In this document: one piece after another, positions 7,001 through 39,019 of the stretch
How positions within the stretch are numbered: position 1 is the first letter of the stretch
Layout: each line of letters begins with the position of its first letter
Origin: Ignavibacteriales bacterium
GTDB taxonomy: Bacteria; Bacteroidota; Ignavibacteria; UBA10030
Reading direction: 5' to 3'
DNA: 48,570 nucleotides
Assembly (NCBI GenBank): GCA_016193365.1
Contig: JACPSI010000085.1
Location: 1-48,570, forward strand
Made by a program: the position numbers and the translations under genes
The notes under the pieces: generated by a model
The model's input: the letters and a program-made list of their open reading frames with translations, nothing else
Databases searched by the model: none
Told to the model about the DNA's origin: nothing

Positions 7001-9192
7001 TGTGTCACAAATGTTAAGAGGCTGCCTGTCGTCGTTCCCGCGCTGTTGAAACCTGTTACCGTAAAGTAGTACCTGGTATTTGCCACAATCCCGTTCAGGT
7101 GCTTGGTCACAGCGACAGGTTCAGTTCCATTCCCGATTTGGCCATTTTCTCCCTGCTCAGCATTCGCGGAGTTAGGGACGGCCGGCGTTGTTCCCCAGTT
7201 GAATTTCACAGTAGTTAAAAGACCGTTGGGATTGACGACACCGTTGAGAATCGCAGAGGAAGAAGCGATTTCAGTGGCGGGGTTTGTGGTGACCGTTGGA
7301 GCGTTTACCGCTTTTGTTGTGAAGTTCCATGAGGCTGAAAACGCGCTTGAGCCGCCCGAATTCTTTGCCCGTACGCGCCAGTAGTAGGTCGTATTGTGGA
7401 AAAGTTGTACTGTCCGACTTGTTTGTGTGATGCTTGAATCATCCAGGACGAGGGACGAGAAGCCTGAATTCGATGAAACCTGCAGGTGATAGAGTGTAGC
7501 GCCTGCGGCCACATTCCACTGCAACGTTACGGCTGTGTCCAGGTTTGTCGCTCCGTTTGCCGGGCTTACCAGTGTCGGGACTGGTGGGGGAAGAGGAATC
7601 GTTGTAAAGTTCCAAACTTGTGACCAATCGCTCGTCCCTCCTCCATTTGTTGCATTGACACGCCAAAAATACCTGGTGCTGTTGCTCAGCCCGCTTGTAC
7701 TGTATGATTGTTCGGACAGATCGCTTTGATCGATGGTCACCGATGTAAAAGTAGAATCAGTTGAGATTTGCACCCGATAGGTCGATGCACCGTCGGAGGG
7801 ATTCCAGAGGACCGAGGTGTTCACGGGAACATCAATTGCACCATTCTCCGGACTCGAGAGCATTGGTACTGCAGGAGGGACGGGCATAGTCGTAAAGCTC
7901 CAGACGCTCGACCAGTCGCTCGTTCCTCCTGCATTTGTTCCATTTACTCGCCAGTAATACGTGATGTTGTTTGACAGCCCGTTCGCATCATAAGAAGTGG
8001 AGGAAATATTACTTTGGTCAATCGTCGTACTGGCAAACGTTGAGTCAGTACTAACCTGCAAACTATATGAGTCCGCCGTTACTGAAGGGTTCCATGAGAG
8101 AGTCACGTCTGTGGCAATGTTTTGTGCACCATCTGTGGGGGTGACCAGAGTTGGCGCACTTGGCGGACTTGGTATAGTTGTAAAATTCCAAACTTGTGAC
8201 CAATCGCTCGTCCCTCCTCCGTTTGTTGCATTGACACGCCAAAAATATCCGGTTCCATTGGTGAGGCCGCTCACGTCAAAAGACTGAGTTGTTAGGCCGC
8301 TTTGGTCTACGATCTGAGTGAGGAATGTGGAATCAACCGATAGCTGAAGCTGATAGGAAGAAGCTCCGGATGCGGCATTCCAACTTAACGTCAACGAAGT
8401 TGCTTGACCGGTGACCCCATTTTCTGGACTCAGAAGTATAGGCGCTGACGGGGCAGCCTCAATGGTGGTAAAGCTAGAGGTATCTGACCAGTCGCTTGAT
8501 CCACCACTATTGGAGGCTTGAACGCGCCAGTAGTATATCGTGTTTCCAGCCAATCCGCTCGCGGCGTACGAAGTATCTGACAAATCAGCCTGGTCGATCG
8601 TTGCTGATGAAAAGTTCTGGTCTGTAGCGACCTGAATGCGATATGACGTTGCGAAACTTGAGGACTCCCATGAAAAATTTGGCGAAGTCGATACCCCCGT
8701 CGCCCCATCGTTCGGCGACCGTAGAACTGGCGGTTCAGGCGGCGCTGTCGCGGTAAGAGAAGAAAGTACATGTAAGGCACCGCCAGAATACTTACCGGCG
8801 CCAAACGAACTATTGGTAAACGAATACGCCACAGAGACACTTGCGTATTCTGTGTCAGTCGCTTTACGCCAAACACGGTAAAATATTTCCTCTCCCGGTT
8901 TCATCCCGTCGACAGTATCCGTGGTCGTAGCGTCGTCCCCCCAAACAGCTATCGAGATGTCCGCACTGTTCCACACAATAGCCCCAACACAAAGCCCTGC
9001 GGGCGAAAACGCGCCAATTTCATCTCCTGCAGCAAGAGGCGATCCATTGATGTTCGGATTCGACGTGAGTGGAACGGCGACGTTATCGCTGACGTCTGTT
9101 ATGGTATATCGGAAATGTTGCGGCTGAGCATTCATCATGCTGAAGAACACGCAGCCCAACAAGCCAGGGAGGAGAACCCTTGTCATTAGCAT
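1099..9192 (-). CDS. Giant T9SS-secreted surface protein with about 22 fibronectin-III repeats
   Basis: 2697 aa. A signal peptide (hydrophobic to about residue 21, ending MMNAQ) is followed by a GDEIGAF-containing domain (about 25-145) shared with the neighbouring protein. Then come about 22 FN3-like modules of about 92 aa. Twenty follow the pattern P-T-L-SP-G-A...L-W...YRLQVS-S-F...TYYWRV-A-N-GGTSDWS...FTT; two (sixth and last) are of a different SATLN-VNPNG type. A GWNLISNPF domain and a classic T9SS type A sorting domain (NNFPNPFNPST start, KMILLK end) close the protein. Its likely role is an extracellular adhesin or matrix protein attached after T9SS export. Start is ATG at 9192; a second ATG at 9186 is possible. 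The ribosome site is weak. It lies 41 nt after the 938-aa FN3 gene. One module (near 5678) has an internal deletion and two others share a nearly identical 70-nt stretch. Confidence 0.9.
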   Translation of the reverse strand: MLMTRVLLPGLLGCVFFSMMNAQPQHFRYTITDVSDNVAVPLTSNPNINGSPLAAGDEIGAFSPAGLCVGAIVWNSADISIAVWGDDATTTDTVDGMKPGEEIFYRVWRKATDTEYASVSVAYSFTNSSFGAGKYSGGALHVLSSLTATAPPEPPVLRSPNDGATGVSTSPNFSWESSSFATSYRIQVATDQNFSSATIDQADLSDTSYAASGLAGNTIYYWRVQASNSGGSSDWSDTSSFTTIEAAPSAPILLSPENGVTGQATSLTLSWNAASGASSYQLQLSVDSTFLTQIVDQSGLTTQSFDVSGLTNGTGYFWRVNATNGGGTSDWSQVWNFTTIPSPPSAPTLVTPTDGAQNIATDVTLSWNPSVTADSYSLQVSTDSTFASTTIDQSNISSTSYDANGLSNNITYYWRVNGTNAGGTSDWSSVWSFTTMPVPPAVPMLSSPENGAIDVPVNTSVLWNPSDGASTYRVQISTDSTFTSVTIDQSDLSEQSYSTSGLSNSTRYFWRVNATNGGGTSDWSQVWNFTTIPLPPPVPTLVSPANGATNLDTAVTLQWNVAAGATLYHLQVSSNSGFSSLVLDDSSITQTSRTVQLFHNTTYYWRVRAKNSGGSSAFSASWNFTTKAVNAPTVTTNPATEIASSSAILNGVVNPNGLLTTVKFNWGTTPAVPNSANAEQGENGQIGNGTEPVAVTKHLNGIVANTRYYFTVTGFNSAGTTTGSLLTFVTQFGSIVPTLALPQNNSINQAITLTLTWNALPNAISYRLQVSNDPAFSSFVVDDSTVADTSGQVGPLQNETTYYWRVNAKNSSSTSGWSQTWNFTTVPAVPAPPTLVSPVDGALDVSTNPALSWNTVTGADSYRIQLSTDSLFSSTTFDQSGVTATTFNASSLSLSTIYFWRVNAMNAGGSGDWSAVWSFTTVPPPPDMPTLFSPGNGTNELPTTLTLTWNAASGAESYRLQVATSTNFTNLVVDQSGIQSTSREVSGLANNKTHYWRVNASNAGGTSDWSPVWSFTTFDPPPSAPTLVSPDDGATDQPMTLTLSWSSAESNGTYRLQVSTSSLFTTLLVDDSTLTNTFREITGLSQNTTYYWRVRVTTSGGTSNWSSVRNFTTVPPPPSAPLLLSPASGSTGISTNPTLSWNASSGASAYRVQLSEDLTFSTWIVDDSAITDWRVNASNSGGISPWSEVWNFVTIPESPPPPILVSPTDAAQNISTSPTLSWNPSEGAVTYHLQISSNSAFSVIIIEQNDLATTSFSANGLTNGTAYYWRVSAANAGGTGDWSAVWTFSTIPLAPDIPSPTSPPSGATDQPITLDLSWTSSARASSYRLQVSGNADFTSVVVDDSTITQTSQQVGPLSYTTTYYWRVLASNAGGTSAWSNASNFTTTSPETPPGPVLSSPPSGSLNLPTTLTLIWNSSVGAISYHLQVSSDPAFGALTFDDSTITNTSQEVRSLANATTYYWRARSKQIAVTSNWSSVWNFTTVPDIPPTPTLISPANNAINVSTSPTFSWNVSTGAISYRLQVSPSPTFSPTMIDQSGITSTSFPANSFNRDQTYYWRVSATNAGGTSDWSSVWSFTTIPDTPATPTLASPINGSNDISVNPTLSWNASTGAASYHLQISTNSNFTSTVIDKAGIADTSDTISGLAYSTRYYWRINATNSGGTSAWSTVWDFTTVPAPPATPSLSSPANGSQNQPTTIALMWNSSARASAYRLQVSADSTFTAIGVDQNDLVSTTATITSLATNTIHYWRVHAFNTGGTSAWSNVWSFTTVPSPPAAPTLSTPANGATGVSLNPTLSWASVVGASLYRLQLAVDSVFTNIVVNQTDILSTSYPLVNLSSRTKYFWRVSAANAGGNGDWSATWNFETISDTPPPPTLSTPSDGATNQPTTITLSWSTSTGATSYRLQLSKNTNFTGSDFDDSTITTTSKQVGSLNEGTVYYWHVNAKNSGGTSPWSPTRNFATESNNPQAGPILVSPPNGALNQPTTLTFSWNADPAAVSYYLQISTNSSFSSIVFRDSAISGTSHTVSSLNNNTVYYWRVSSRYLLLSSDWSNVWSFTTVPLPPPTPTLASPSNGATNVSTTPTLTWDAPLSTSCQLQVSTNSSFTALVFDDTTLTIASQRIGPVVTSTAHYWRVRARNDGGWSGFSTAFMFTTASGGAPIAVTGAPSAITPTSATLNASVNPNGYSTIVRFQYGKSLSYGNTVDAIPSTVSGTGAVDVNKTLEGLSPNTTYHYRVMATNSDATAYGEDKSFTTSIPPYPTTYTVGTTIYFPTMSRPGEYKTTDYRLVGLPGESNSRVESMIQGVPEKDWIMYWDNGAPTDNLIPYNSSNDIFRFTVGRAFWLINKGPLDMSGNIQTAQLNSSDEVEIPLHSGWNLISNPFDRPVLWSKLQNLNGTSEQIWSFSGSYDSSATLAPYVGYYFFNKESLPFLRIPYSDQFPNDTVSSSSPEPLWKIQIAASSGEIVDKSSWIGTSPGASVDRDDLDYHKPRGFGGTPAVYFDRPEWDEHYTSFGADFRPPVQRIERWSFNVESAKGARVDLTFKGISTLPAHLHTYLLDEKRARAVNLRSDSVYSYTSVSEVSQFVVTVGTQDAVDELLQSFNVPRRFVLGNNFPNPFNPSTLISFDIPTGSEIDLKVFNMIGQEVRTLYAGTAEPGRHWVLWDGKDNLGMQVPSGVYLYRLATNVGFSETRKMILLK

Positions 9193-9233: not shown

Positions 9234-12050
9234 CTAACGCACGAGGATCATTTTTCTGATTTCAGTGAACTCGTCCGCTTTGAACCTGTAAATGTAAATG
9301 CCTGCTGGTAACTTTGTGCCAAAAACGACTCTGTGGTAGCCGGGTCCCTGTTCTTCTTCAACGAGAACTGCCACGCGTTGTCCGATGATGTTAAACACTT
9401 CCAAACGTACCATGGCGGATTTCGGCAGCCCGTATGTAATTACTGTTGTGGGGTTAAACGGGTTCGGATAGTTCTGACCAAGCACGAACTCCGTCGGAAT
9501 ATCAGGATCTTCCTGAATGCCCGTAGTAGATCCGGCAGTGAAAGCGGAAAGCACTGACAAGCCATTGGTGGCGTAAGAGCTATCTCCCTCCGAGTATCCG
9601 ACAATCACCTTCGGGAACTCCTGGTTGTTCTGTTGCTGCCAGACCCGGTAGTGGATCTTCTCGCCTGACCGAATTCCGTCGATTTCCGCCGTTTGGTCGT
9701 CGTCTCCCCAGACAGTAACCGATGTGTTCAATCCCGTCCACACCACAGCCCCGACACAAAGTCCGGCGGGGGAGAAGGCTCCGATCTCATCTCCGGCTGC
9801 GAGTGATCTTCCGCTGATGTTTGGGTTTGAAGACACCGGGATGGCAACAGTCGCATTGTTCCCGGTATTTGATTTAAAAGAGAAATAAGATGCTGTGGCA
9901 ATTTTGTGTTCTTGATTTGCTGCAGACAAGAGGGTGATCGGAGCGCGTCCTGTTAACATGTCGCCAGTGGAAGAGCTGTCATTTGCAGGATACGTCAATG
10001 TGGATGCTCCCGTAAGTTTCAGTTGATATCCCTGTCCGGGCATCATTGTTCCAATTTGGTCGATACTATGCTCTGGCCAGTACACTCTCCCTGAACCATT
10101 TTTCACGATGATAATTTGACCGGCAATCGTCGCAAGAGCAGAGTCGATATCCAAGGCAGAGTTGCGCATATAGGTAATCATATGCCAGCCTTGAATGAGC
10201 GAAAGAGAATTCATCTCGGGGATGAGTTCATTTCCAGGAATCATCAAAGTGTCGCCGGCGCTCATGTATGCCTGGTATCCGTCGGCGTAATCCCAGTCGC
10301 CGATGTCATTAATGCGGAAATCCGATGTAACCCAGTAGACTTTCCCTGAATCGTCTTTTATGATGACCAGGTTATCTGCAATCCCCGATGTAAGCGTGTC
10401 AAGATTAGTGTTTTGCGGTTGGACAAAGCTGGAGATCATGTTCCATCCCTGCTGAAGAATAATCCCGTGTGTCATTGGAGTGCCTATCGTCGTAAACCGC
10501 CAAACGCTTGACCAATCGCTTGTCCCGCCAGAATTTGTAGCATTGACACGCCAGTGATAGGTTGTGGCGTTAAGAAGAGGCCCGACCTCGCTGGAAGTTG
10601 ATGTCACAGTCGAATCGTCAACGATAGTAGAAGTGAATGAAGAGCTTGTTGAGACTTGCAAGCGATAACTTATCGCCCCTGAGGATGCATCCCAACTCAA
10701 TGTCAGAGTCGTAGGCTGAAGCGTAGATCCGTCCGCAGGAGAAAGGAGTGTCGTAACGACCGGAGGCAGGGGGACAGTTGTAAAACCCCAGACCGTCGAC
10801 CAGTCACTGATACCGTCTGTATTTTCAGCACTAACTCGCCAAAAGTATGCTGTTTCGTTAGATAGCGGGCCCACCTGCCTCGAGATTTCTGTGAGGCCAG
10901 AGTCATTGACAGCCAGAGAACTGAACGAAGAGCTTGTTGAAACCTGCAAACGGTAACTCGAAGCTCCGGAGACGGCATTCCAACTTAAAGTGAGTGTCGT
11001 TTCCTGATCAATCGAGCTATCAGGCGGAGCTGCAAGCTGCGGAGCGGCGAGCATCGTGGTGAAACTCCAGACGCTTGACCAGTCACTCGTCCCGTCTGCA
11101 TTTGTCGCATTCACGCGCCAGAAATACGATGTATTATTTGCAAGCGGTCCAACATCACTGGAGGTTGTCGTAACATTCGAATTATCAACTACGATGGAAG
11201 CGAAGGAGGTATCCGTCGACACCTGTACACGATAGCTCGTTGCACCGGAAGAAGCATTCCAGGTCAGAGAGAGTGAGATGGGTTGGTGGACCGAACCATC
11301 AGTCGGCGATAAGAGATCTGGCGGTCCTACAATGGTTATAAAACTTCTGACCGTTGACCAATCGCTCGTGCCTCCGGAATTAGAGGCATTCACACGCCAA
11401 AAATATGTTGTATTGTTCGCGAGGCCGTTCGCGTTAAAAGATGTTGCCGTAATACTGTCTTCAGCTATAGCCGGCGATGTGAAAGACGTATCTGTGGCAA
11501 CCTCGATGCTATATGTTGTGGCAAAACTCGTTGTATCCCATGAAAATGTTGGAGTTACCGATAGTCCCCTTGCGCTGTCCAGCGGCAAGAGAAGGTTTGG
11601 AGGATCCGGAGGTGCCGTCGCATCCAGAGACGTGAGTGTATAGGTTGCGTTCACGATATACGTTCCGTCACCCGATAAATACGTCACGACAACGCTTGCA
11701 AACTCGGTGTCTGTGGATTGACGCCAAACACGGTAATGAATGAGTTCTCCTGGCTGCATTCCGTCGATGGTACCTGTCTGTTCATTATCTCGCCAGACGG
11801 TGATCGCGTCATTGACGCTGTTCCAGACAATCCCGCCCACACAAAGCCCTGCCGGAGTGAAGGCTCCGATTTCGTCGCCTGAAACAAGTGGAGAGCCGTT
11901 GATGTTTGGGTTGGTTGTGACAAGCACAGCCACAGTGGCGCTGTTGCCCGTATTTGAAGTAAACTGAAAATGTTGTGTTTGTGCCGATGCTTCCGCTGCC
12001 AGAAAAGCAAACAACGCCAGGCAGACAAATATGACAGTTATCCTGCTCAT
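9234..12050 (-). CDS. T9SS-secreted protein with four FN3 repeats
   Basis: 938 aa from the ATG at 12050, which has a strong AAGGGGG ribosome site; the frame extends 22 codons further upstream without such a site. Order: signal peptide (hydrophobic core then AEASAQ, about 1-24), GDEIGAF domain (about 25-120), four FN3 modules (about 125-480) ending VWRFTT, and two GW-MIS units (starting QQGWNMISS and IQGWHMITY, about 485-660). A second GDEIGAF domain (about 720-830) and a T9SS type A sorting domain (QNYPNPFNPTT...KMILVR) follow. FN3 and GDEIGAF modules are closely similar to those of the 2697-aa neighbour, so the two arose by duplication of shared parts. Export by T9SS and surface attachment are expected from the sorting domain; the ligand is unknown. 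It lies 72 nt downstream of the initiating transferase and may be read from the same sigma-54 promoter. Confidence 0.9.
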   Translation of the reverse strand: MSRITVIFVCLALFAFLAAEASAQTQHFQFTSNTGNSATVAVLVTTNPNINGSPLVSGDEIGAFTPAGLCVGGIVWNSVNDAITVWRDNEQTGTIDGMQPGELIHYRVWRQSTDTEFASVVVTYLSGDGTYIVNATYTLTSLDATAPPDPPNLLLPLDSARGLSVTPTFSWDTTSFATTYSIEVATDTSFTSPAIAEDSITATSFNANGLANNTTYFWRVNASNSGGTSDWSTVRSFITIVGPPDLLSPTDGSVHQPISLSLTWNASSGATSYRVQVSTDTSFASIVVDNSNVTTTSSDVGPLANNTSYFWRVNATNADGTSDWSSVWSFTTMLAAPQLAAPPDSSIDQETTLTLSWNAVSGASSYRLQVSTSSSFSSLAVNDSGLTEISRQVGPLSNETAYFWRVSAENTDGISDWSTVWGFTTVPLPPVVTTLLSPADGSTLQPTTLTLSWDASSGAISYRLQVSTSSSFTSTIVDDSTVTSTSSEVGPLLNATTYHWRVNATNSGGTSDWSSVWRFTTIGTPMTHGIILQQGWNMISSFVQPQNTNLDTLTSGIADNLVIIKDDSGKVYWVTSDFRINDIGDWDYADGYQAYMSAGDTLMIPGNELIPEMNSLSLIQGWHMITYMRNSALDIDSALATIAGQIIIVKNGSGRVYWPEHSIDQIGTMMPGQGYQLKLTGASTLTYPANDSSSTGDMLTGRAPITLLSAANQEHKIATASYFSFKSNTGNNATVAIPVSSNPNISGRSLAAGDEIGAFSPAGLCVGAVVWTGLNTSVTVWGDDDQTAEIDGIRSGEKIHYRVWQQQNNQEFPKVIVGYSEGDSSYATNGLSVLSAFTAGSTTGIQEDPDIPTEFVLGQNYPNPFNPTTVITYGLPKSAMVRLEVFNIIGQRVAVLVEEEQGPGYHRVVFGTKLPAGIYIYRFKADEFTEIRKMILVR

Positions 12051-12122
12051 AATTCCCCCTTTGAAAGAATAAGAAATGAAAACTTTACTGTGGCGACATC
12101 TTTTCCGTTTGTTCATGGAATC

Positions 12123-22306: not shown

Positions 22307-23188
22307 ATGATGCCGGTCAACGGCAATTCTCGAAATCTGAAACTCTTGCTCTACCACAGAATTGTCAATAATAAACAACTCTGCAATGCACACTGGTCTT
22401 GCGTGCATGTCAACGAATTCCAAAAACAACTTGACCTTCTTGACCGGTGGGGATACAGTGCCGTCACACTGGAAGACTTTCGACTGTCTCAAGAGCGGAA
22501 GCTGATGCTGCCGAAAAAACCGATCATCATTTCCTTCGATGACGGGTATCTTGACACGTACGATCTTGCGTTTCCGCTGTTGCAGGAGTATGGCATGAAG
22601 GCTGTCGTGTTTGTCCTCGGTGAACGAAAAATCAAGTCAAATTACTGGGTCAAATACCTGGGATTACCGGATGTGCCCCTTATGAAGGCTGAGCATGTGG
22701 TCGAGCTTCATGAAAGCGGGATCGAAATAGGTTCTCACACCATGACGCATGCACGCCTTCCGTTTCTGCGCGAAGATGAGGCCTGGGAGGAAATCTTTCG
22801 GTCAAGGATGTTGCTGGAGATCCTCATCAATGCACCCGTTCACTCCTTCTCGTACCCCTATGGCCTTCTGAATCCCAAAATCAAGCAAATGGTCGTCAAC
22901 GCAGGGTTCAAATCCGCGTGTGCAGTTCAATCGGGTCCTGCCACCTTTGGGAAAGATCTTTATCGAATCCGGAGAATGCCGATTTTGAATACTACGAACT
23001 CGATAGGTTTTGCGATGAGGGTGCTCGCTCCTTACCAATACTACGGTTGGATCCGGTGGAGGATTTCAAACGCTCTTTTTGGGCAATACGGTAGGTACGG
23101 CGCAAACGGGAAGTACACGCTCCGTGAACTTGTCGGGGAAACACCGGCAGCAAAAGAAGAACATTCGAATGCAGACCATAAATTTTGA
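22307..23188 (+). CDS. Polysaccharide deacetylase (NodB domain)
   Basis: 293 aa with an AAAGGAG ribosome site; two adjacent ATGs (22307, 22310). NodB motifs: IISFDDGYLDTYD (metal-binding Asp, about 73-85), IEIGSHTMTHARL (His-x3-His, about 142-154) and SFSYPYGLLNPK (about 185-196). There is no signal peptide, so unlike secreted deacetylases it probably acts in the cytoplasm on lipid-linked intermediates or nucleotide sugars. Removing an N-acetyl group would expose an amine, an ideal acceptor for the acyltransferase fusion encoded next. The stop overlaps an in-frame TTG of that next gene (TTGA), hinting at coupled translation. Confidence 0.9.
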   Translation: MMPVNGNSRNLKLLLYHRIVNNKQLCNAHWSCVHVNEFQKQLDLLDRWGYSAVTLEDFRLSQERKLMLPKKPIIISFDDGYLDTYDLAFPLLQEYGMKAVVFVLGERKIKSNYWVKYLGLPDVPLMKAEHVVELHESGIEIGSHTMTHARLPFLREDEAWEEIFRSRMLLEILINAPVHSFSYPYGLLNPKIKQMVVNAGFKSACAVQSGPATFGKDLYRIRRMPILNTTNSIGFAMRVLAPYQYYGWIRWRISNALFGQYGRYGANGKYTLRELVGETPAAKEEHSNADHKF

Positions 23189-23217: not shown

Positions 23218-26200
23218 ATGGATAAGGCTATAAGTCATAATCTGCGTGTCATTCAATCTCCTGCCAGGGAACCGTATCGTGCGGAATTTCCGCAATATCT
23301 TACCGTGGAAGTTCTCCGTGACAAATGGAGACTTGAAAGGGTGCAGAATGAATGGTCGCATCTTGTCGAAAAGTCGGGCGCGCACATTTTTCAATCTTTC
23401 GACTGGCAGTCATTGTGGTGGAAACATTTCGGTGGCTTCAAGGTTCTTCATGTACTTCTGTTTCGACATCATGGAACACTCGTTGGAGCAGCTCCGTTCT
23501 ATATCGACCACAAAACCCTTCTTGGCATAGACATCTACGCTCGGCTTCGTCTGGTGGGCTCTCTCGATTGCGAAGATGGATGGGGTCATGAGCGCCACTC
23601 CTGCCCGGATTCGTACCTCGATATTTTGTCCCTCCCGGAGTATGAGGACGACGTCGTCAGAACGCTCGTGAAATACCTTCAAGACCATTACGACCTCTAT
23701 GATGAAATCTCGCTTGAGAATATCGCCGAGGATTCAATGGTCAAGAGAAAACTCATCCCGGCTTTTGAGGATCTTCAGTGGAGATACCGAAAATATTCCG
23801 GCGTGCCCGCGCGGCAGATGGAGCTTGCGGAATCTCTTGATGTCTTCATGCAATATCTGACCACCAATGAACGCCATCAGCTTCAACTGGCGCGTCGTGC
23901 AGTAACACACTGGAGGCTGTTTTCTGTGGAAACAGTTGAGTCTCAACGGGAACTCAGCAACATCATTCCACTCCTCTCACGTCTTCATCGTTATCAAAGT
24001 CAGAAAAGAGGAAGATTCAGCGCCTTCAGAAACACGCAGTTCGATGCCTTTGTGAAAGATGTTTTTGCTGCCAGTTTAAAGAAGGGCGTTCTCTCTCTCG
24101 CCGTTGCACGACGGGATGAACAGCCTGTGGCGTTTCACTGTGGCTTCTTCTTTAACAAGAGAGCCTATAACTATCTCACCGCATGTGACGAAAGCATGCC
24201 GACCGCCAGGCGGAAAGCAGAGCAGGCGCTGCTCCTCTCTTTTATCGAACAAGCTGTCGAGAAGCGCTTTCTGTGCATTTATGACGTCCAACCGAATGAA
24301 CCTTGCATACAACAAGCTTCGTTTTCTCCGGGGCACACATGGAACCTGGTAATCCCAAATCCGCCAAGATACGCCGACCTTCGATACAAATTGTTTCACG
24401 CTCAGTCGGCTCTGGCCTCTTATCGCCGGAGAGCCATTAGCGCGTTCCTTGGAGGCTGGATGTTGCTGAGGGAGTACTTACGAAACCTCGCGCGTGTTGC
24501 GAAGAATTCTCGAGATGAAGAATCGGAAACAACAGAAGGATCACACATGATCTCAGAACGCAGGATGAAAACAAACCCCGAATTTCGAGTGGAGGTCATT
24601 CACAAGGATAGTGAATTCCTCAATGTTCGGGCTGAGTGGGAAGAATTGGTCGAGCAGTCAAACGTAAGCATCTATCAGACATTTGATTGGATGTGGCTGT
24701 GGTGGAAGCATTTTGGCAAAGCACACACTCTTCACATTGTTCTCATACGTTGCGGGGAAAAGTTAGTGGGCATCGTCCCGATCCTGTTGGAAGTGCGTCG
24801 CATCCTGGGAATGCCACTTTACAGGAAGTTTAAGTTTATCGGCTCCGGCGTCGACCTCGGAACAAATGGCGGCATGTTGGCCGATTCTGGGCCGAGCGAT
24901 TACCTCGATATGATTGCGATGCCAGGGTATGAGTCTGACTGCGCGAGAGAATTCCTTGAATACCTTCAACGAAACAGTTCTGCATGGAGTTCGGTGGAGT
25001 TCGTCAACGTCCCCGAGCGGGGTCCTATTTTAAGCACGCTCGTTCCAACGTTTCAGACGGCAGGTATGAAGGTCAAAGTCGTTCAAACAGATGTTTGCCC
25101 AAGAATTCACGTGCCCGCATCATTGGAAGAATACTTGCAAGGGCTGAACTCAAACACGCGACATCGCCTCAACCAGTCGCGCAAAACCTTTTTAAACGAT
25201 TCTCAGTATCTCATCGAAACTGTCGATTCTACTGAAAAACTTGCATCAGCATTTCAGGATCTCATGAGGCTTCACCAACAGCGCTGGAATCGGCTCGGAT
25301 ATGTTGGTCTTTTCTCGAACGACCGTTTTCTGAAGTTCCAGGAAGATTTTGCCAGAGCATTGCTGGAACAAAAACGTCTGTGGTTTAAGAGCGTCGTGGG
25401 CAATGGAAGTCGAATTGCGTGCAGAATGGGTTTCGTGTTCAAAAACAGATTCTACGATTACCTGACGGGGTTTGATGACACGGCGCCGACTGCTAAACGC
25501 CGTCCAGGCATGGCGCTGCTGCTTTGCATGATTGAAGATGCGAGTCGGTTGCAAGATGCTGTTGTAGACCTGTTGAGAGGCGCCGAAACGTATAAGTTCG
25601 AGCTGACTTCTCATGCACATCATAACCATAGCGTAACGATTCTGAATCCGGTTGCGCATTATGGCATCCGGGAGATGATCTATCAACTTGTTAAGACTCT
25701 TGATGCAATCAAGGGGAGAGTTTTGGCGGAGGTCTCTCTGTTGCGCGTGCAGTATAGAGAACACGGTATGCCGGTTTTTCTGGCGCATTATGTAGCCTTT
25801 CGTTTCAAGAGAGCCATGCAAAAGGCAAACGACTGGTTAAAATCGTTTCGAAATGGTTACAGGGAGAAGAAGGATCATCAAAAGGTCCACCCCATCCTTA
25901 ACCGGATACAACAGTTGAAGCGCTTCCCCCTGGTTCAGAAAATTCTGCGGGGTCTCAAGAGGGATAAAAACCTTCCGCTGTCGCGGAGACTTTACAAAGG
26001 TTTGATTTTCGTGCGCGCGCTAGTGCTCGCAAAGGTCTATCTGTGGAAGTGCGATATCGTAGGGAAGCGGGCTCGCACGCGCGCACGCCCATTTATTGTC
26101 AACGTCGGCCGGATAGAGATTGGCGACGATTTTAACATCAATTCACGAATCGTCAGATGTGAACTGGCGACTGCCAGCGGAGGTCTTATCAGGATAGGCA

Positions 26201-26829
26201 ATGAAGTCGGCATCAATTTCGGCACATGCGTTTTCGCCCAGAAGCACGTAGACATTGGGGACAGGGTTCATGTCGGTCCCTACGCGATGATCCTCGATAC
26301 TGACTTCCACACGGCAGCCGAACGGTACAGCGCGCCGAAAGGGGAGCCGATTATCATCGAAGATGACGTCTGGATCGGCGGAAGGGTATCCGTGTTGAAA
26401 GGAACAAGAATAGGCAAGGGCTCAGTCATCATGGTGGGGAGCGTTGTTTCGGGTGTTATCCCGCCGCACGTCATTGCCGGAGGTGTACCTGCGCGCGTTA
26501 TCCGATCGTTGAATTCCGAAGAGAATCATCGCGCATCACCGGAAAAGCAGCTCACGCAGAGAACCAATCACAGGATCACTGAACGTGTTGCCTCGGTGTT
26601 CCGCAGGACTTTTCAAATTCAAGGCCAGCTTGACCAGTCATGGGGTCCAGCGAGGATCGCCGGATGGGACTCGCTTGGGCATCTTAATATGATCTCTGAA
26701 ATCGAGCAAGAGTTTGGAATTTCACTCACAGAAGAGGACATGATGCGTCTCAGGAGTGTGAAAGAAGTGTGCGCGGTTGTCCAGGAACATATCGAGGCTG
26801 GAAAGGAATCCAATGCACCTCGTACATGA
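23218..26829 (+). CDS. Four-domain fusion: FemAB/GNAT - FemAB/GNAT - hexapeptide acyltransferase - acyl carrier protein
   Basis: 1203 aa from ATG 23218 (TTG 23185 also possible). Module 1 (about 30-400) and module 2 (about 450-850) are homologous BioF2/FemAB-like acyltransferase units: FQSFDWQSLWWKHFGG versus YQTFDWMWLWWKHFGK, NERHQLQLARR versus NTRHRLNQSRK, YLTACDESMPTARRKAEQALLL versus YLTGFDDTAPTAKRRPGMALLL (split here). Residues about 958-1100 form a left-handed beta-helix acyltransferase (RIEIGDDFNINS, VHVGPYAMILDTDFH, IEDDVWIGGRVSVLKGTRIGKG, IAGGVPARVI). Residues about 1118-1198 are an acyl carrier protein with phosphopantetheine site GWDSLGH (Ser1152). The 3-prime end overlaps the acyl-adenylating ligase by 17 nt. 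I infer a system that carries an activated acyl or amino-acyl group on the C-terminal carrier and transfers it to sugar amines or hydroxyls. A ribosome-like AGAAGGA sits 7 nt before an in-frame ATG at 24547 between modules 1 and 2. Confidence 0.88.
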   Translation: MDKAISHNLRVIQSPAREPYRAEFPQYLTVEVLRDKWRLERVQNEWSHLVEKSGAHIFQSFDWQSLWWKHFGGFKVLHVLLFRHHGTLVGAAPFYIDHKTLLGIDIYARLRLVGSLDCEDGWGHERHSCPDSYLDILSLPEYEDDVVRTLVKYLQDHYDLYDEISLENIAEDSMVKRKLIPAFEDLQWRYRKYSGVPARQMELAESLDVFMQYLTTNERHQLQLARRAVTHWRLFSVETVESQRELSNIIPLLSRLHRYQSQKRGRFSAFRNTQFDAFVKDVFAASLKKGVLSLAVARRDEQPVAFHCGFFFNKRAYNYLTACDESMPTARRKAEQALLLSFIEQAVEKRFLCIYDVQPNEPCIQQASFSPGHTWNLVIPNPPRYADLRYKLFHAQSALASYRRRAISAFLGGWMLLREYLRNLARVAKNSRDEESETTEGSHMISERRMKTNPEFRVEVIHKDSEFLNVRAEWEELVEQSNVSIYQTFDWMWLWWKHFGKAHTLHIVLIRCGEKLVGIVPILLEVRRILGMPLYRKFKFIGSGVDLGTNGGMLADSGPSDYLDMIAMPGYESDCAREFLEYLQRNSSAWSSVEFVNVPERGPILSTLVPTFQTAGMKVKVVQTDVCPRIHVPASLEEYLQGLNSNTRHRLNQSRKTFLNDSQYLIETVDSTEKLASAFQDLMRLHQQRWNRLGYVGLFSNDRFLKFQEDFARALLEQKRLWFKSVVGNGSRIACRMGFVFKNRFYDYLTGFDDTAPTAKRRPGMALLLCMIEDASRLQDAVVDLLRGAETYKFELTSHAHHNHSVTILNPVAHYGIREMIYQLVKTLDAIKGRVLAEVSLLRVQYREHGMPVFLAHYVAFRFKRAMQKANDWLKSFRNGYREKKDHQKVHPILNRIQQLKRFPLVQKILRGLKRDKNLPLSRRLYKGLIFVRALVLAKVYLWKCDIVGKRARTRARPFIVNVGRIEIGDDFNINSRIVRCELATASGGLIRIGNEVGINFGTCVFAQKHVDIGDRVHVGPYAMILDTDFHTAAERYSAPKGEPIIIEDDVWIGGRVSVLKGTRIGKGSVIMVGSVVSGVIPPHVIAGGVPARVIRSLNSEENHRASPEKQLTQRTNHRITERVASVFRRTFQIQGQLDQSWGPARIAGWDSLGHLNMISEIEQEFGISLTEEDMMRLRSVKEVCAVVQEHIEAGKESNAPRT

Positions 26830-28390
26830 ATACATCAAAGAATCTGCTCATCGATTTCCGGATAAACCCGCGCTGGTGTGCGAGCTGGAGGAATTCTCCT
26901 ACGAACAAATGCAGAAAGGGATAGAGTCGCTCGTGAAAGTGCTGGCCGAGACGGGACTCCGAAGGGGAGACCGCGTCCTCATCCTCTTGAACCACAAAGT
27001 TCATTTCCTGCTGGCTTGTTATTCCTCCATGGCAGCCGGCGCAATTGCAGTCCCTCTCATCGAAGGGATATCGCGAAGTTCCATTGAAATAATTGCCGAG
27101 GATTGCTCACCTTCTCTTTTGATTTCTTCTTCAAATGACCTGGATTTATATCCACAGCTTCGCGAGTTGATGACATGCACGATTGTACTCATCGATAAGG
27201 ACGAGACTTCGGCGATACGTGAGCAGAATCTCCAGATCGTAGGAAAAGCGGTGAAAGGTCTGTCTCATGCAAATGGACCGAACGAAAAGAATGTCTCAAA
27301 AGACGACGGCGCGGTTATTCTCTACACCTCGGGTTCCACGGGAAGGAAAAAAGGAGTGCTCCTGACACACCGTAACCTTATCCGCGCGACGTTAAACATC
27401 AACGAGTATATGGGAATCGATTCCAGGATTCGTGAATTCGTCGCAGTGTCGCTGGCGCACTCGTTCGGATTCGGAAGAAGTCGCTGCGTTCTTTTTGTTG
27501 GGGGAACGCTGGTGATGAACGACGGGATGCTGAACCCCCCTCTCGTAGTGCAAACCATTGAGCGCCACAAGTGTAATGCCATTTCGACTGTTCCATCGGG
27601 TTTCGCACTTTTCTTCGGGCGGTTGGAACCTCTGCTGTGGCGCGTCGGCTCGCAAATACGCCACATTGAGCTGGGAAGCTCGCCGATGAGTATCGAGGGC
27701 AAAAAGAAGATCATGGAGATTTTTCCGAATGCCCGCATCTGCATGCATTACGGCCTGACGGAGGCCTCACGAAGCACCTTCATCGAGTTTCGTCATGAAC
27801 GAACGAAGCTCGAAACTGTCGGCCGTCCTTCTCCGAATGTGGAAATCAGGATTGCTCCGGACGACCAACAGCTGAAGGGTGACGATGTAGAAGGCGAAAT
27901 CCTCATTCATGGAGACCATGTCGCATCCCGGTACTGGAATAACGAGGCCCTGACAAAAGAAAAATTCATTGGTGACGGATGGCTGAAGACAGGAGACTAC
28001 GGCTCCATTGACCGTGATGGGTATGTGTGTCTTCTCGGGCGAAAAGATGACATGATCAACACGGGCGGGATCAAGATTTCTCCGCTTGAGATAGAAGAAC
28101 AGGTGCGGCATGTGTTCCCTCATTGCGAGTGTTGCGTCGTCGGAATTCCAGACCCTGCAGGCGTGGCCGGTGAAATACCCGTGCTTTGCTACAAGGCCGA
28201 GAACGGAATGCGTATGACTTCGCCGGAGCTCATTCATGTGCTCCAGGATAAAATCGATAAATACAAAGTACCGAGAATGGTGTTTCAACCGGAGAAGTTT
28301 CCAAAGACAGAGAATGGCAAGATAAAACGAGACGAGTTAAGGCACATGATTCTCAAGGATATGCTTCATCGGCAATCCGAGCCTGTGTGA
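26813..28390 (+). CDS. Acyl-adenylating ligase (ANL superfamily)
   Basis: 525 aa from ATG 26813, with AAAGGA ribosome site inside the end of the carrier-protein gene (17-nt overlap, so coupled translation). ANL motifs: phosphate loop YTSGSTGRKKG (171-181), MHYGLTEAS (311-319), GDGWLKTGDYG (387-397), GRKDDMINTGGIKISP (409-424) and the catalytic Lys in TENGKIKR (Lys503). It should activate a carboxylic acid with ATP and pass it to a thiol; the overlap with an acyl carrier domain makes that domain the likely acceptor. The substrate (fatty acid, hydroxy acid or amino acid) cannot be read from the sequence. Comparable acyl-CoA ligases occur in exosortase-associated exopolysaccharide loci. Confidence 0.92.
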   Translation: MHLVHEYIKESAHRFPDKPALVCELEEFSYEQMQKGIESLVKVLAETGLRRGDRVLILLNHKVHFLLACYSSMAAGAIAVPLIEGISRSSIEIIAEDCSPSLLISSSNDLDLYPQLRELMTCTIVLIDKDETSAIREQNLQIVGKAVKGLSHANGPNEKNVSKDDGAVILYTSGSTGRKKGVLLTHRNLIRATLNINEYMGIDSRIREFVAVSLAHSFGFGRSRCVLFVGGTLVMNDGMLNPPLVVQTIERHKCNAISTVPSGFALFFGRLEPLLWRVGSQIRHIELGSSPMSIEGKKKIMEIFPNARICMHYGLTEASRSTFIEFRHERTKLETVGRPSPNVEIRIAPDDQQLKGDDVEGEILIHGDHVASRYWNNEALTKEKFIGDGWLKTGDYGSIDRDGYVCLLGRKDDMINTGGIKISPLEIEEQVRHVFPHCECCVVGIPDPAGVAGEIPVLCYKAENGMRMTSPELIHVLQDKIDKYKVPRMVFQPEKFPKTENGKIKRDELRHMILKDMLHRQSEPV

Positions 28391-30908: not shown

Positions 30909-31766
30909 ATGAATATACAGGAAGCTGGTGACGGAATGTTACGAACACGAATTCATACGAGCGAGTATCTCGCAAAAATTGGCGTCCCGAAGATTCCGCC
31001 ACTGACGAGTCCTTTCGACCCGGGTTACGATCCTGTGACCCTTGAGAGTCACTTGCAGCAAAGTTCTCATCTCATGTCGATTCTGAAAATCTCTATGGCA
31101 TGCTGGATAATAGCGGATGAAGGGTCAACGCGTCAGAAGCTGTCGGCGGCAAAAAGATATAATGTTCCAACTGTCACCGGTGGAGGCCCATTTGAAATTG
31201 CCGTTGCCCAGAAGCAGTTGCCTCTTTATATGGACCTGTGTGCTGACATAGGTGTCACACGGATAGAATGCGGTGAGGGATTCACCGATATGCCGCTCAA
31301 GCCGCGTGAAGTTGTTGGGATGGCGGCCGAACGCGGGCTTGATGTACAATTCGAGCTGGGTAAGAAGCATGGCGGGGCGTTCACTCGCAAAATAGTGAAC
31401 ATGCTTTTAGAACAGGGAGAACGATGGCTCGATGCTGGATCCCTCCAGCTTGTTGTCGAGGCAAGAGAAAGCGCGAAAGGAGTGGGGCTCTTTGACGATC
31501 GCGGTGACTTCAACAAAGGATACGCCGACCTCTTTGGAAAAACATTCGGCCTTCATACTGTTATATTTGAAGCCCCGAACAAACCGAGTCAGTTTGCCCT
31601 GTTGGATCACTTCGGGCGCGATGTTCATCTTTGTAACGTAAGACTCGAAGAGGTTCTTCGTGTGGAAATTTACCGTCGCGGATTGCATTCTGACGCGTTC
31701 CAGAAAGATCACTTGAGGCCACAGATTCCCAGAGAAAGAGGGCAACACCAATTGTTTGAGGCCTGA
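30909..31766 (+). CDS. ComA-like phosphosulfolactate synthase family protein
   Basis: 285 aa, ATG 30909 with AAGGGGGAT ribosome site. ComA condenses phosphoenolpyruvate and sulfite to (2R)-phospho-3-sulfolactate, the first step toward sulfolactate or coenzyme M. Family segments are recognisable in order: PTVTGGGPFEIA (ComA GGTLFE), VTRIECGEGF (EISDG), DVQFELGKKHGG (EVGKK), LVVEARESAKGVGLFDDRG, TVIFEAPNKPSQFALLDHFG, VHLCNVRLEEVLRVEIYRRGLHSDAF. Two usual N-terminal segments differ: the DKG motif reads FDPGYD and KFGWGTS reads KISMACW, so substrate or mechanism may be altered. The next gene, one base after the stop, is the ComB phosphatase homologue, which supports a real two-step pathway. Finding this pair in a polysaccharide locus is unusual. 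Confidence 0.85.
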   Translation: MNIQEAGDGMLRTRIHTSEYLAKIGVPKIPPLTSPFDPGYDPVTLESHLQQSSHLMSILKISMACWIIADEGSTRQKLSAAKRYNVPTVTGGGPFEIAVAQKQLPLYMDLCADIGVTRIECGEGFTDMPLKPREVVGMAAERGLDVQFELGKKHGGAFTRKIVNMLLEQGERWLDAGSLQLVVEARESAKGVGLFDDRGDFNKGYADLFGKTFGLHTVIFEAPNKPSQFALLDHFGRDVHLCNVRLEEVLRVEIYRRGLHSDAFQKDHLRPQIPRERGQHQLFEA

Positions 31767-31767
31767 C

Positions 31768-32292
31768 ATGCAAAGAAAAGTCGTTATCGATTGTTTTCCC
31801 GGGAGCACCGAGAAGTATGAGGAACGCTATGCCATCGTCGCCATTGATGTCATTCGAGCAACAACTACTGCTGTAACGGCTGTTGCAAGAGAGAGAAGAT
31901 GTTTCCCCGTTCCTTCAATTGAGGCAGCGCTTCCGGTTGCCGCTCGTCTCAACAATCCACTACTTGTGGGAGAGTTGGGGGGCAACATGCCCTACGGGTT
32001 CGACCTGACAAACAGTCCTGCTCAGGTTGATGCGCGCACCGATGTCGATCGGCCCATGATCTTACTCTCCTCCTCCGGGACACAGCTCATTCATGGTGCT
32101 CAGAAAGGTGAGGCCGCCTACGTTGCATGTCTGAGAAACTACGAAGCTTTGGCTCGTTACATTGCACGATGTCACGACCGTGTGGCGGTTATCGGTGCGG
32201 GGACAAGAAATGAATTTCGCGAAGAAGACCAAATGTGCTGCGCGTGGATTGCAGAACTGCTCTTGGAAGAAGGAAAACACTTGAACTTGTGA
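31768..32292 (+). CDS. ComB-like 2-phosphosulfolactate phosphatase, frameshifted
   Basis: ATG 31768 lies one base after the ComA-like stop. Reads 174 codons, then hits a premature TGA at 32290-32292. Family motifs: AIVAIDVIRATTTAVTAV (about 24-41), VGELGGNMPYGFDLTNSPAQ, MILLSSSGTQLI, VAVIGAGTRNEFREEDQMCCAW. ComB removes the phosphate of phosphosulfolactate to give sulfolactate and is Mg-dependent. The family is normally about 235-245 aa; the missing C-terminus is found in another frame (32277-32495). Reading through with a single extra A in the AAAA run near 32274-32277 restores a 242-aa protein. Likely a sequencing or assembly slip, otherwise a recent pseudogene. Confidence 0.8.
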   Translation: MQRKVVIDCFPGSTEKYEERYAIVAIDVIRATTTAVTAVARERRCFPVPSIEAALPVAARLNNPLLVGELGGNMPYGFDLTNSPAQVDARTDVDRPMILLSSSGTQLIHGAQKGEAAYVACLRNYEALARYIARCHDRVAVIGAGTRNEFREEDQMCCAWIAELLLEEGKHLNL

Positions 32293-32495
32293 GAAGATGG
32301 AGGGGCAAATCTCCCGGAGCATGCGTGGTGTCGAAGAGTGTTGAATACCTGGAAAAAACGAACCAACACGATGACCTGGAATTCATTCTTTCACATATCA
32401 ACGATCTTGAAGGGGTCTTCAAAATGTGCTCAGGTGAGGTGCTCAACCTGTCTGTTGGAGCAACATCGGTCGCAGAGAATGCCGCGTTGAGTTAA
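32277..32495 (+). pseudogene. Displaced C-terminal part of the ComB-like protein
   Basis: About 72 codons in a different frame from the start of the gene, opening at the AAAA run where the first frame ends shortly afterwards. The translation (TLELVRRWRGKSP, then VSKSVEYLEKTNQHDDLEFILSHIND and VFKMCSGEVLNL) has the expected ComB C-terminal form with the DDLEFIL segment and stops at TAA. It has no start or ribosome site of its own and only makes sense as the end of the preceding gene. Confidence 0.75.
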
Positions 32496-37013: not shown

Positions 37014-38126
37014 ATGGTTGAAATCATTCATGATCGAGAGGCGCTCGCATCCCTTCAGAATGACTGGAATCGGCTCGCCATGCGGTTCCAGTCGCCGCTC
37101 CTCCGACACGAATGGTTTATGTCCTGCGTGTACGCGTTTTCGTACAGACAAAAGCCGGCTGTGTTCATCGTGAGAAATCATGGAGCTGTAGAAGCCATAG
37201 CTCCGCTTGCGACGGTAAGGGGAGTGGGCATGTCGAGCCTGGAAGTGATGGGAGCGTCGGTTCTGGGAGAACCATGCGGATTCCTGTTCAAAGACTGGCG
37301 CAGTTTGGATGAGCTCTTTAGAGCCATCGTTTCGGACGGACGGCCAGTCCACTTGGACCGAATGATGTCAGATTGCCCCGAATTGAAAGTGCTCGATACG
37401 GTTTCTTCAGAGGAGAGAATGTTTGTGCATGATCGAGAGTCGAGGTCCCCCTGGTTGCCGATTGCTGGCGACTGGAAGAGTTACGAAAAATCGATTTCTT
37501 CCAGCCGTCGTTCAAGTCTCCGTCGTGCCTATCGGCGGGCCGCGGAAGCAGGAACTCTGACTTTCGAAATCGTCTCACCCGGAAACGATGAACTCGACCC
37601 CTATTTCGAAGAAGTGGTTTCGGTTGAAGCGGCAGGATGGAAAGAAAAAGTAGGCACGTCCATGAACGCCAATGCGGCGTTGAGGAATTTCTTCTGGTAT
37701 TACGCCCATGCAACTGCCCGTATGGGAATTCTCAGATTAGGTTTTGCCAAAATGAACGGCACGTCGATCGCTGTGCTCATGGGTGTTCAGTATGCTCAAA
37801 AGTTTTGGGTGTTGAAAATTGGATTCGATGAGCAGTGGGCAAAATGCTCCCCCGGAAATCTACTCATGCACGAAACAATTCGATGGTCGTTCGAAAGAGG
37901 GCTGCGGGCATTCGAGTTTCTTGGTAATGAGGAAATCTGGATACACATATGGACCGACCTGAGCCATATCTATCAGTCGCAGTCTGTGTACCCTTTGACT
38001 GTGCGTGGCGTCGTCTCCTTTGGTATCGATTTGCCCAGGATGCTTATGCAAAGAGCAGCATCGGCGCGGAGAAAGATAGCAAAACAATGGCATGGAAAAT
38101 TCTTACAGCCGCTAAGGCAAACGTAA
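37014..38126 (+). CDS. FemAB/BioF2-like N-acyltransferase
   Basis: 370 aa; ATG 37014 directly abuts the TGA of the ATP-grasp gene. The protein has the layout of the Acetyltransf_6/FemAB-like group: LASLQNDWNRLAMRFQSPLLRHEWFMS (N-terminal, in pieces), the basic helix SSSRRSSLRRAYRRA near 162-176, then EEVVSVEAAGWKEKVGTSM near 205 and a second GNAT-fold half with FAKMNGTSIAVLMGVQYAQKFWVLKIGFDEQW near 247-278. These correspond to the two modules of the 1203-aa fusion, making this a third family member in the locus. Family enzymes transfer amino-acyl or acyl groups to amines. It overlaps the next gene by 40 nt. Confidence 0.82.
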   Translation: MVEIIHDREALASLQNDWNRLAMRFQSPLLRHEWFMSCVYAFSYRQKPAVFIVRNHGAVEAIAPLATVRGVGMSSLEVMGASVLGEPCGFLFKDWRSLDELFRAIVSDGRPVHLDRMMSDCPELKVLDTVSSEERMFVHDRESRSPWLPIAGDWKSYEKSISSSRRSSLRRAYRRAAEAGTLTFEIVSPGNDELDPYFEEVVSVEAAGWKEKVGTSMNANAALRNFFWYYAHATARMGILRLGFAKMNGTSIAVLMGVQYAQKFWVLKIGFDEQWAKCSPGNLLMHETIRWSFERGLRAFEFLGNEEIWIHIWTDLSHIYQSQSVYPLTVRGVVSFGIDLPRMLMQRAASARRKIAKQWHGKFLQPLRQT

Positions 38127-39019
38127 TATCCCGGATCGGTAAGAGTCACGTGGTTGGCTCAACTTTTCATGACGCCGTGGTCATCTCCCGTTCGATAGCC
38201 CGGTTTGGATGGTCGTGCACATTCGGGTTGTGGCCGGAAGAATCAGATTCCCCAAAAAATGTGGCGGGCAAATACCTCACAGCTCTACAGGGAATCATTC
38301 GTGAAGGGACTGCTTCCTGTTTATCAGTAAAGCTTTTCCGGCTCGGATACGATTTTGGCCTTCTTAAGGAAGTTCTCGAAGCCGCAAAATTTTCAGGAAA
38401 CAGGATTCAATTTGACGCAATGGACCATGCGTCAACATCCAATACGTTTGCAATGGTCGAAAAGTCGATGGTTGTGCACTCAAATCTTGGTTGTACGTTG
38501 CCGGCACGATGGGCCCGGAGTGAACGGGATGCAGAGTGGGCTGCGGAATTAGGGATCTTTGTGCGGATTGTGAGAGGGCAATGGCCCGATCCGAACGGAA
38601 GCCGCTTTCAGAGACCCGCCATGTTTCTGAAGCTTGTGGAGAAGCTCTGTGGCCGCGTAAAAGGCGTAGCCGTGGCCACGCACGATGAGCAACTGGCTTT
38701 GCGAGCCCTCGAGAGTTTGAAATTGGCAGGAACCCGCTGTGAGCTTGAATTGATGATTGGATTACCGCTGAAAGGCGCAGAGATGGCACGTGAGATCGGG
38801 GTTCCCGTTCGCATCTACATTCCGTACGGCGCTGCATCGCTTCCTTACAGGATTTCTGATCTGATGACGCGGCCTGCTGTCCTTGCATGGGCAACGAGAG
38901 ACCTGACAATGGGGAAAAGAAAAAAAATATACCGCATGTGCGATAAGCGGATAAGGCAATTCCCCTCTATCGCGAAAAGCCATTTCATGAATACTCATAG
39001 CTGGGAATGGAAATGCTGA
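38087..39019 (+). CDS. Proline-dehydrogenase-like flavoprotein, substrate site altered
   Basis: 310 aa from ATG 38087 (40-nt overlap with the gene before; a longer frame upstream is only a shadow of that gene). The TIM-barrel order of monofunctional proline dehydrogenase is visible: VGSTFHDAVVISRSIARFGW, IQFDAMDHASTSN, VRIVRGQWPDP (PRODH RLVKGAY-EP), VAVATHDEQL (ATHD), ELELMIGLPL (EFQMLxG-) and VRIYIPYGAASLPYR (RVYVPYG-W-PY). The helix that normally reads YxxRRLAERP, whose two arginines hold the proline carboxylate, here reads YRISDLMTRP, so the arginine pair is missing. It probably keeps FAD but oxidises something other than free proline. Location in the modification block points to a special substrate. 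Confidence 0.8.
   Translation: MAWKILTAAKANVISRIGKSHVVGSTFHDAVVISRSIARFGWSCTFGLWPEESDSPKNVAGKYLTALQGIIREGTASCLSVKLFRLGYDFGLLKEVLEAAKFSGNRIQFDAMDHASTSNTFAMVEKSMVVHSNLGCTLPARWARSERDAEWAAELGIFVRIVRGQWPDPNGSRFQRPAMFLKLVEKLCGRVKGVAVATHDEQLALRALESLKLAGTRCELELMIGLPLKGAEMAREIGVPVRIYIPYGAASLPYRISDLMTRPAVLAWATRDLTMGKRKKIYRMCDKRIRQFPSIAKSHFMNTHSWEWKC

Follow-up and report, generated by a model that had tools for sequence, protein, structure and literature searches.

The window, the whole stretch of 48,570 nt of DNA that was analysed (G000 contig 27, from a 3.16 Mb MAG), carries a single open frame in which two FemAB units, a hexapeptide acyltransferase (LbH) and an acyl carrier domain (ACP) follow each other in this order, and the end of this frame is overlapped by the gene for an acyl ligase. 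Frame and ligase may well form an acylation module, fused and carrier-based, that serves an exopolysaccharide (EPS) pathway, a stepwise proposal to which we give an about even chance. Read directly from the DNA are the domains and the fact that they are fused, an intact ligase, and an EPS cluster syntenic with those of relatives.

The frame extends from an ATG at 23218 to a stop codon at 26829 and encodes 1203 amino acids with no internal stops; the alternative start, TTG at 23185, would give a frame of 1214 amino acids. Matches above the Pfam cut-offs were obtained for Acetyltransf_6 (twice), Hexapep and PP-binding, and the ligase, starting with an ATG at 26813, overlaps the end of the fusion frame by 17 nt. 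An earlier note on this DNA had given the single 1203-aa frame, the 17-nt overlap and all coordinates correctly, and its hexapeptide and carrier domains (the latter with GWDSLGH, which was read) and adjoining deacetylase were also recovered, the last as a Polysacc_deac_1 match directly upstream. The features are listed in Table 1.

Table 1. Features of the fusion frame and its immediate neighbours (window coordinates)
Feature	Coordinates	Strand	Evidence
Polysaccharide deacetylase (PgaB/IcaB/HfsH-like), directly upstream of fusion	22307..23188	+	Polysacc_deac_1 5.6e-25
FemAB1, FemX-like tandem-GNAT unit, residues 1-441, probably non-catalytic	23218..24540	+	FemAB2 homology, model, conserved columns
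FemAB2, FemX-like unit, all family signatures	24577..25860	+	30-46% identity to 10 relatives
LbH, left-handed beta-helix hexapeptide acyltransferase, WbbJ/LacA type	25924..26520	+	Hexapep, PDB matches
Acyl carrier domain, candidate phosphopantetheine Ser1152 in GWDSLGH	26590..26829	+	PP-binding
AMP-forming acyl ligase, P-loop, hinge, A10 lysine intact	26813..28390	+	AMP-binding, AMP-binding_C

The locus is a Wzx/Wzy-dependent EPS cluster, with a flippase, a polymerase, Wza-type export and a chain-length protein, and a large part of its gene order is shared with relatives. Its minus-strand part encodes a WecA-type glycosyltransferase and the Wza-type exporter. The fusion is preceded, in order, by genes for the chain-length protein, a tyrosine-kinase-like protein, Wzy, WecG, a GT4 glycosyltransferase (TIGR03087-like) and the deacetylase, and is followed by those for the ligase, Wzx, a methyltransferase, ComA, ComB, an ATP-grasp-like protein and a second methyltransferase, after which the cluster continues with ATP-grasp, FemAB3, ProDH-like, GH9 and GT2 genes. 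The deacetylase adjoins FemAB in most relatives, and its NCBIfam matches to PgaB, IcaB and HfsH were below cut-off. The third, distant FemAB-like gene overlaps the proline-dehydrogenase-like gene (37949-39019), and this pair (window 37014-39019) recurs in relatives. At 9234-12116, the gene for a large Ig/Fn3 protein with a tail for type IX secretion adjoins a minus-strand ORF of 2697 aa (window 1099-9192).

ComA (phosphosulfolactate synthase) and ComB are encoded inside the EPS cluster (window 30909-32470). In several relatives FemAB is followed by ComA, and L023 adds a gene of the Ldh_2 family, to which sulfolactate dehydrogenase belongs. The idea that sulfolactate is the acid loaded was set aside as a candidate only, because the same module stands in L047 with no ComA seen in the available DNA, and because ComA adjoins FemAB in genomes that have neither ACP nor ligase. 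To our knowledge, there is no precedent for sulfolactate being produced for a polymer. The ComB frame of the window (31756-32462) has a frameshift near 32270, with the C-terminal part in another frame; ComB copies are intact in relatives, and the break is either a sequencing error or a pseudogene.

Both FemAB units have a tandem-GNAT, FemX-like fold. PF13480 matched two stretches of the chain, the AlphaFold model of FemAB1 (pTM 0.77) had FemX as its best PDB match (Foldseek, E 4e-13), and the FemAB2 part of a FemAB2-LbH-ACP model matched FemX with E 6e-12; identity of the units to FemX is ~10%. The latter model had a mean pLDDT of 80 and a pTM of 0.58, and the placement of its domains is therefore not readable. 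FemX-fold structures bound to an amino-sugar substrate were among the matches (streptothricin-type Sbb17/Sba18 with streptothrisamine, from the PDB titles) and show that amino-sugar substrates are open to enzymes of this fold.

The two units are homologous (29% identity over 380 aa, E 1e-59), and in this respect the 'double FemAB' of the earlier note holds, but they are probably not two enzymes. FemAB2 has all 32 columns that reach 90% conservation among 25 family members, including the LHQxRW and DLLRGxExYK signatures, and corresponds to the one FemAB that related clusters have. FemAB1 keeps 17 of the 32, while other family members miss at most six each. FemAB1 is probably non-catalytic, since 15 of the 32 strongly conserved positions and two signatures are lost (LHRYQSQ in place of LHQxRWN, YDVQPNEPCI in place of DLLRGxExYK). 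In the tree it groups with those FemAB units of other genomes that stand after DegT or are joined to it (94/94, not starred, long branch), and L050 and L053 have two FemAB genes in succession. We infer that two consecutive FemAB genes and LbH-ACP were fused in the window, and that the first FemAB then lost catalysis.

The full chain was found in this genome only among the 98 genomes of the order. An LbH-ACP profile gave matches in two of 391 class genomes and three further full-length LbH-ACP genes in 395 phylum genomes; plasmid searches yielded single GNAT matches and nothing beyond. In L047 (JACQVL010000329.1, labelled a Latescibacterota MAG), FemAB, LbH and ACP lie in one chain of 810 aa, which has 50% identity to the window where the two chains correspond, linker included (HPLVKKIVNSLQRDHDLPLSRKLYKG in L047 against FPLVQKILRGLKRDKNLPLSRRLYKG in the window), and a methyltransferase and then an intact ligase are encoded downstream. 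The same chain with a homologous linker in L047 shows that the FemAB2-LbH-ACP fusion is real. A single origin of the fusion was not retained, as the tree shows no common clade of FemAB2 and L047, although the AU test does not reject such a clade (p 0.47). The same-family genome L022 has LbH-ACP as a 340-aa gene ending right at its ligase, and a separate FemAB-LbH-methyltransferase fusion; in L137 and L138, FemAB, LbH-ACP and a short AMP-binding protein are encoded by successive genes, preceded in L137 by a DegT aminotransferase. As relatives carry the same modules as neighbours, the fusion appears to have joined genes that stand in succession in clusters of a kind already known. FemAB is also fused to a DegT-family aminotransferase (L050:4448-7033, by Pfam; same layout at L053:7178-9895 and L056:8681-11416) and, at the same cluster position, to an ATP-grasp domain (L031:7327-10233). 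Together with the LbH-methyltransferase and LbH-ACP fusions, these make the FemAB of such loci a frequent fusion partner of modification genes.

The best PDB matches of LbH were sugar O-acetyltransferases, and His1031, the putative catalytic His, is invariant in all six LbH-ACP proteins. The carrier motif is AGWDSLGHL, with Ser at residue 1152 (PP-binding 24.6 bits, cut-off 20.8). This Ser is retained in five of the six proteins and lost in L139 (WSADNHL), in the cluster of which no ligase was detected. The ACP-joined LbH domains formed one clade in the tree (100/99), separate from the remaining LbH proteins encoded in these clusters, the L022 FemAB-LbH row being a long branch. Judged from these sequences, the conserved pair is LbH-ACP, not FemAB-ACP, and since it is conserved apart from FemAB, LbH is favoured as the partner of the carrier. 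LbH might acetylate independently of the carrier, because its named relatives use acetyl-CoA. The machine is not quite 'self-contained', as the earlier note had called it, because the carrier requires a phosphopantetheinyl transferase, and the AcpS/Sfp-type gene for this lies elsewhere in the genome, on contig 32.

FemAB2 might instead move an acyl or amino-acyl group directly from ACP to a sugar amine, LbH merely O-acetylating with acetyl-CoA, which we consider unlikely. In its favour, two genomes have FemAB fused to LbH-ACP and another two have them side by side, the deacetylase adjoins the fusion, and the Sbb17/Sba18 structures are FemX-fold enzymes with a bound amino-sugar substrate. However, the LbH-ACP gene of L022 is separate from FemAB, the ligase region lacks the amino-acid Asp, and FemAB is widespread without ACP; most relatives have FemAB in clusters without ACP or an intact ligase, and its donor therefore need not be a carrier.

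The ligase matched AMP-binding (3.4e-68) and AMP-binding_C, its motifs YTSGSTGRKKG, GRKDDMINTGG and KTENGK are complete, and all hallmarks of ANL adenylate-forming acyl ligases (P-loop, hinge, A10 Lys) were found. Its A4 region, AVSLAHSFGFGRSR, lacks the Asp of amino-acid adenylation, as do those of L022 and L047, and contains no acidic residues; the TIGR01733 score was 192 bits against a cut-off of 317. Given this substrate region and the conserved LbH-ACP pair, transfer of a non-amino carboxylic acid from ACP by LbH (and possibly by FemAB2) to sugar is likelier than amino-acyl transfer. The carrier-bound acyl or amino-acyl group that the earlier note had passed to a deacetylated sugar is plausible as a route from acid to ACP to sugar, and the amino-acyl part is disfavoured by the absent Asp.

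Ligase motifs were intact in three of five loci with ACP (window, L022, L047) and in none of eight without, where they were altered or missing, and only slightly changed in the nearly intact ligase of L023; with thirteen loci, which are few, the tracking of ACP by an intact ligase is suggestive, no more. Carrier and ligase are not strictly linked, because L137 and L138 keep the ACP Ser and have a short ligase remnant without P-loop. Seven relatives (L027, L028, L029, L030, L032, L052 and L057) have ligase homologues without P-loop and/or A10, still in ACP-less clusters, which appear to be conserved pseudo-ligases. The profile scores of the window ligase were highest for CoA ligases. This would suit a route in which the ligase forms acyl-CoA, LbH and FemAB2 use CoA thioesters and ACP is vestigial or structural, as would the degenerate ligases retained by relatives and the ACP-like region without Ser in L139, but Ser and WDSLGH are conserved in all three genomes with an intact ligase and the CoA route is rated improbable.

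A slightly more doubtful proposal is that LbH or a neighbouring methyltransferase tailors the ACP-bound acid and that FemAB2 then passes the finished group to the sugar; methyltransferase genes close to the module (window, L022, L047) and the FemAB-LbH-methyltransferase fusion of one genome fit this order of events, yet the methyltransferases could instead act on sugars. That separate genes were joined by an assembly or sequencing artefact, named in the earlier note as the finding that would speak against it, is extremely improbable and, for FemAB2-LbH-ACP, chance or misassembly is excluded in practice: the contig is from a MAG, no other genome shows the FemAB1 joint and an ATG with a purine-rich site lies at the FemAB1/FemAB2 junction (24548), but one frame spans all four modules, the 810-aa chain of another MAG has the homologous linker, and L022 has the LbH-ACP pair in a single gene.

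In the proposed acylation module, loading and transfer are deduced from these features. The ligase would convert a carboxylic acid that has no free alpha-amino group to acyl-AMP and load it onto the phosphopantetheine arm of Ser1152, and the tethered ACP would offer the acyl group to LbH, possibly also to FemAB2. LbH (and possibly FemAB2) would then acylate a hydroxyl or amine of a lipid-linked repeat unit in the cytoplasm, and such an amine may be one that the upstream deacetylase has set free. FemAB2 may perform a second, HfsK-like acyl transfer onto the same repeat unit, FemAB1 may be a non-catalytic scaffold or substrate-binding unit, and the fusion would keep the carrier, and the modifying enzymes that act in turn, together on a single repeat unit.

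This module is supported by the single FemAB-LbH-ACP chain with conserved linker in two genomes, by the adjacent separate genes of L022, L137 and L138, by the clade of ACP-attached LbH domains, by the distribution of intact ligases together with the Ser-less L139 without detected ligase, by the phosphopantetheinyl transferase gene, by the Wzx, Wzy, WecG, WecA-type glycosyltransferase and deacetylase genes around it, and by the precedent of HfsH/HfsK (PMC5362036). It is weakened by L137 and L138, which have the Ser with a ligase remnant, by L023, which has a near-intact ligase without ACP, and by the occurrence of FemAB without ACP in most relatives. A complete assembly line, in which the ligase-charged cis carrier serves LbH and FemAB, two chemically different acyltransferases that work one after the other on the same lipid-linked sugar while a dead FemAB unit acts as scaffold, is unlikely. 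A FemX-fold transferase with an acyl-ACP donor would, as far as we know, be the first.

A carrier and ligase fused to FemAB offer a direct handle on the donor that FemAB/HfsK-type enzymes use in biofilm polymers, as the loaded acid could be read by mass spectrometry and would point to what may be placed on the polymer; the arrangement suggests that EPS modification may be organised like a small assembly line. The individual modules are already known, and the single-chain FemAB-LbH-ACP combination with overlapping ligase was not found described in a literature search of partial, open-licence coverage, in agreement with the earlier note, which knew of no described system with this exact domain order.

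In Dlt D-alanylation and in the butirosin proteins BtrJ/BtrI/BtrH a ligase also charges a carrier protein, from which a glycan or an amino sugar is then acylated; unlike the window, these systems use unrelated transferases, separate proteins and amino-acyl groups. The FemABX aminoacyl-tRNA transferases (FemX, FemA) share the tandem-GNAT fold by structure with the window FemABs, which are ~10% identical to them and fused to LbH-ACP. WbbJ, LacA and maltose O-acetyltransferase resemble the window LbH in fold and sequence, but its scores are far under the equivalog cut-offs and it has its own ACP attached. XrtA/PEP-CTERM EPS loci (TIGR03098 ligase, TIGR03087 glycosyltransferase, TIGR03019 FemAB) have related ligase, glycosyltransferase, chain-length and kinase families, but all matches were below cut-off; membership was ruled out, as no TIGR03019 match was found for FemAB and no PF09721 match, for the exosortase, in the genome. 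In the Caulobacter holdfast, HfsH and HfsK are an EPS deacetylase and a FemX-like tandem-GNAT acyltransferase thought to acylate the exposed amines (PMC5362036). HfsK, the catalytic role of which is stated there to be difficult to predict, differs from the window in being a single, c-di-GMP-regulated enzyme, and the available part of that paper describes no ACP, LbH or ligase with it. HfsH/HfsK, a deacetylase with a FemX-like tandem-GNAT enzyme as in the window, are the nearest studied relatives.
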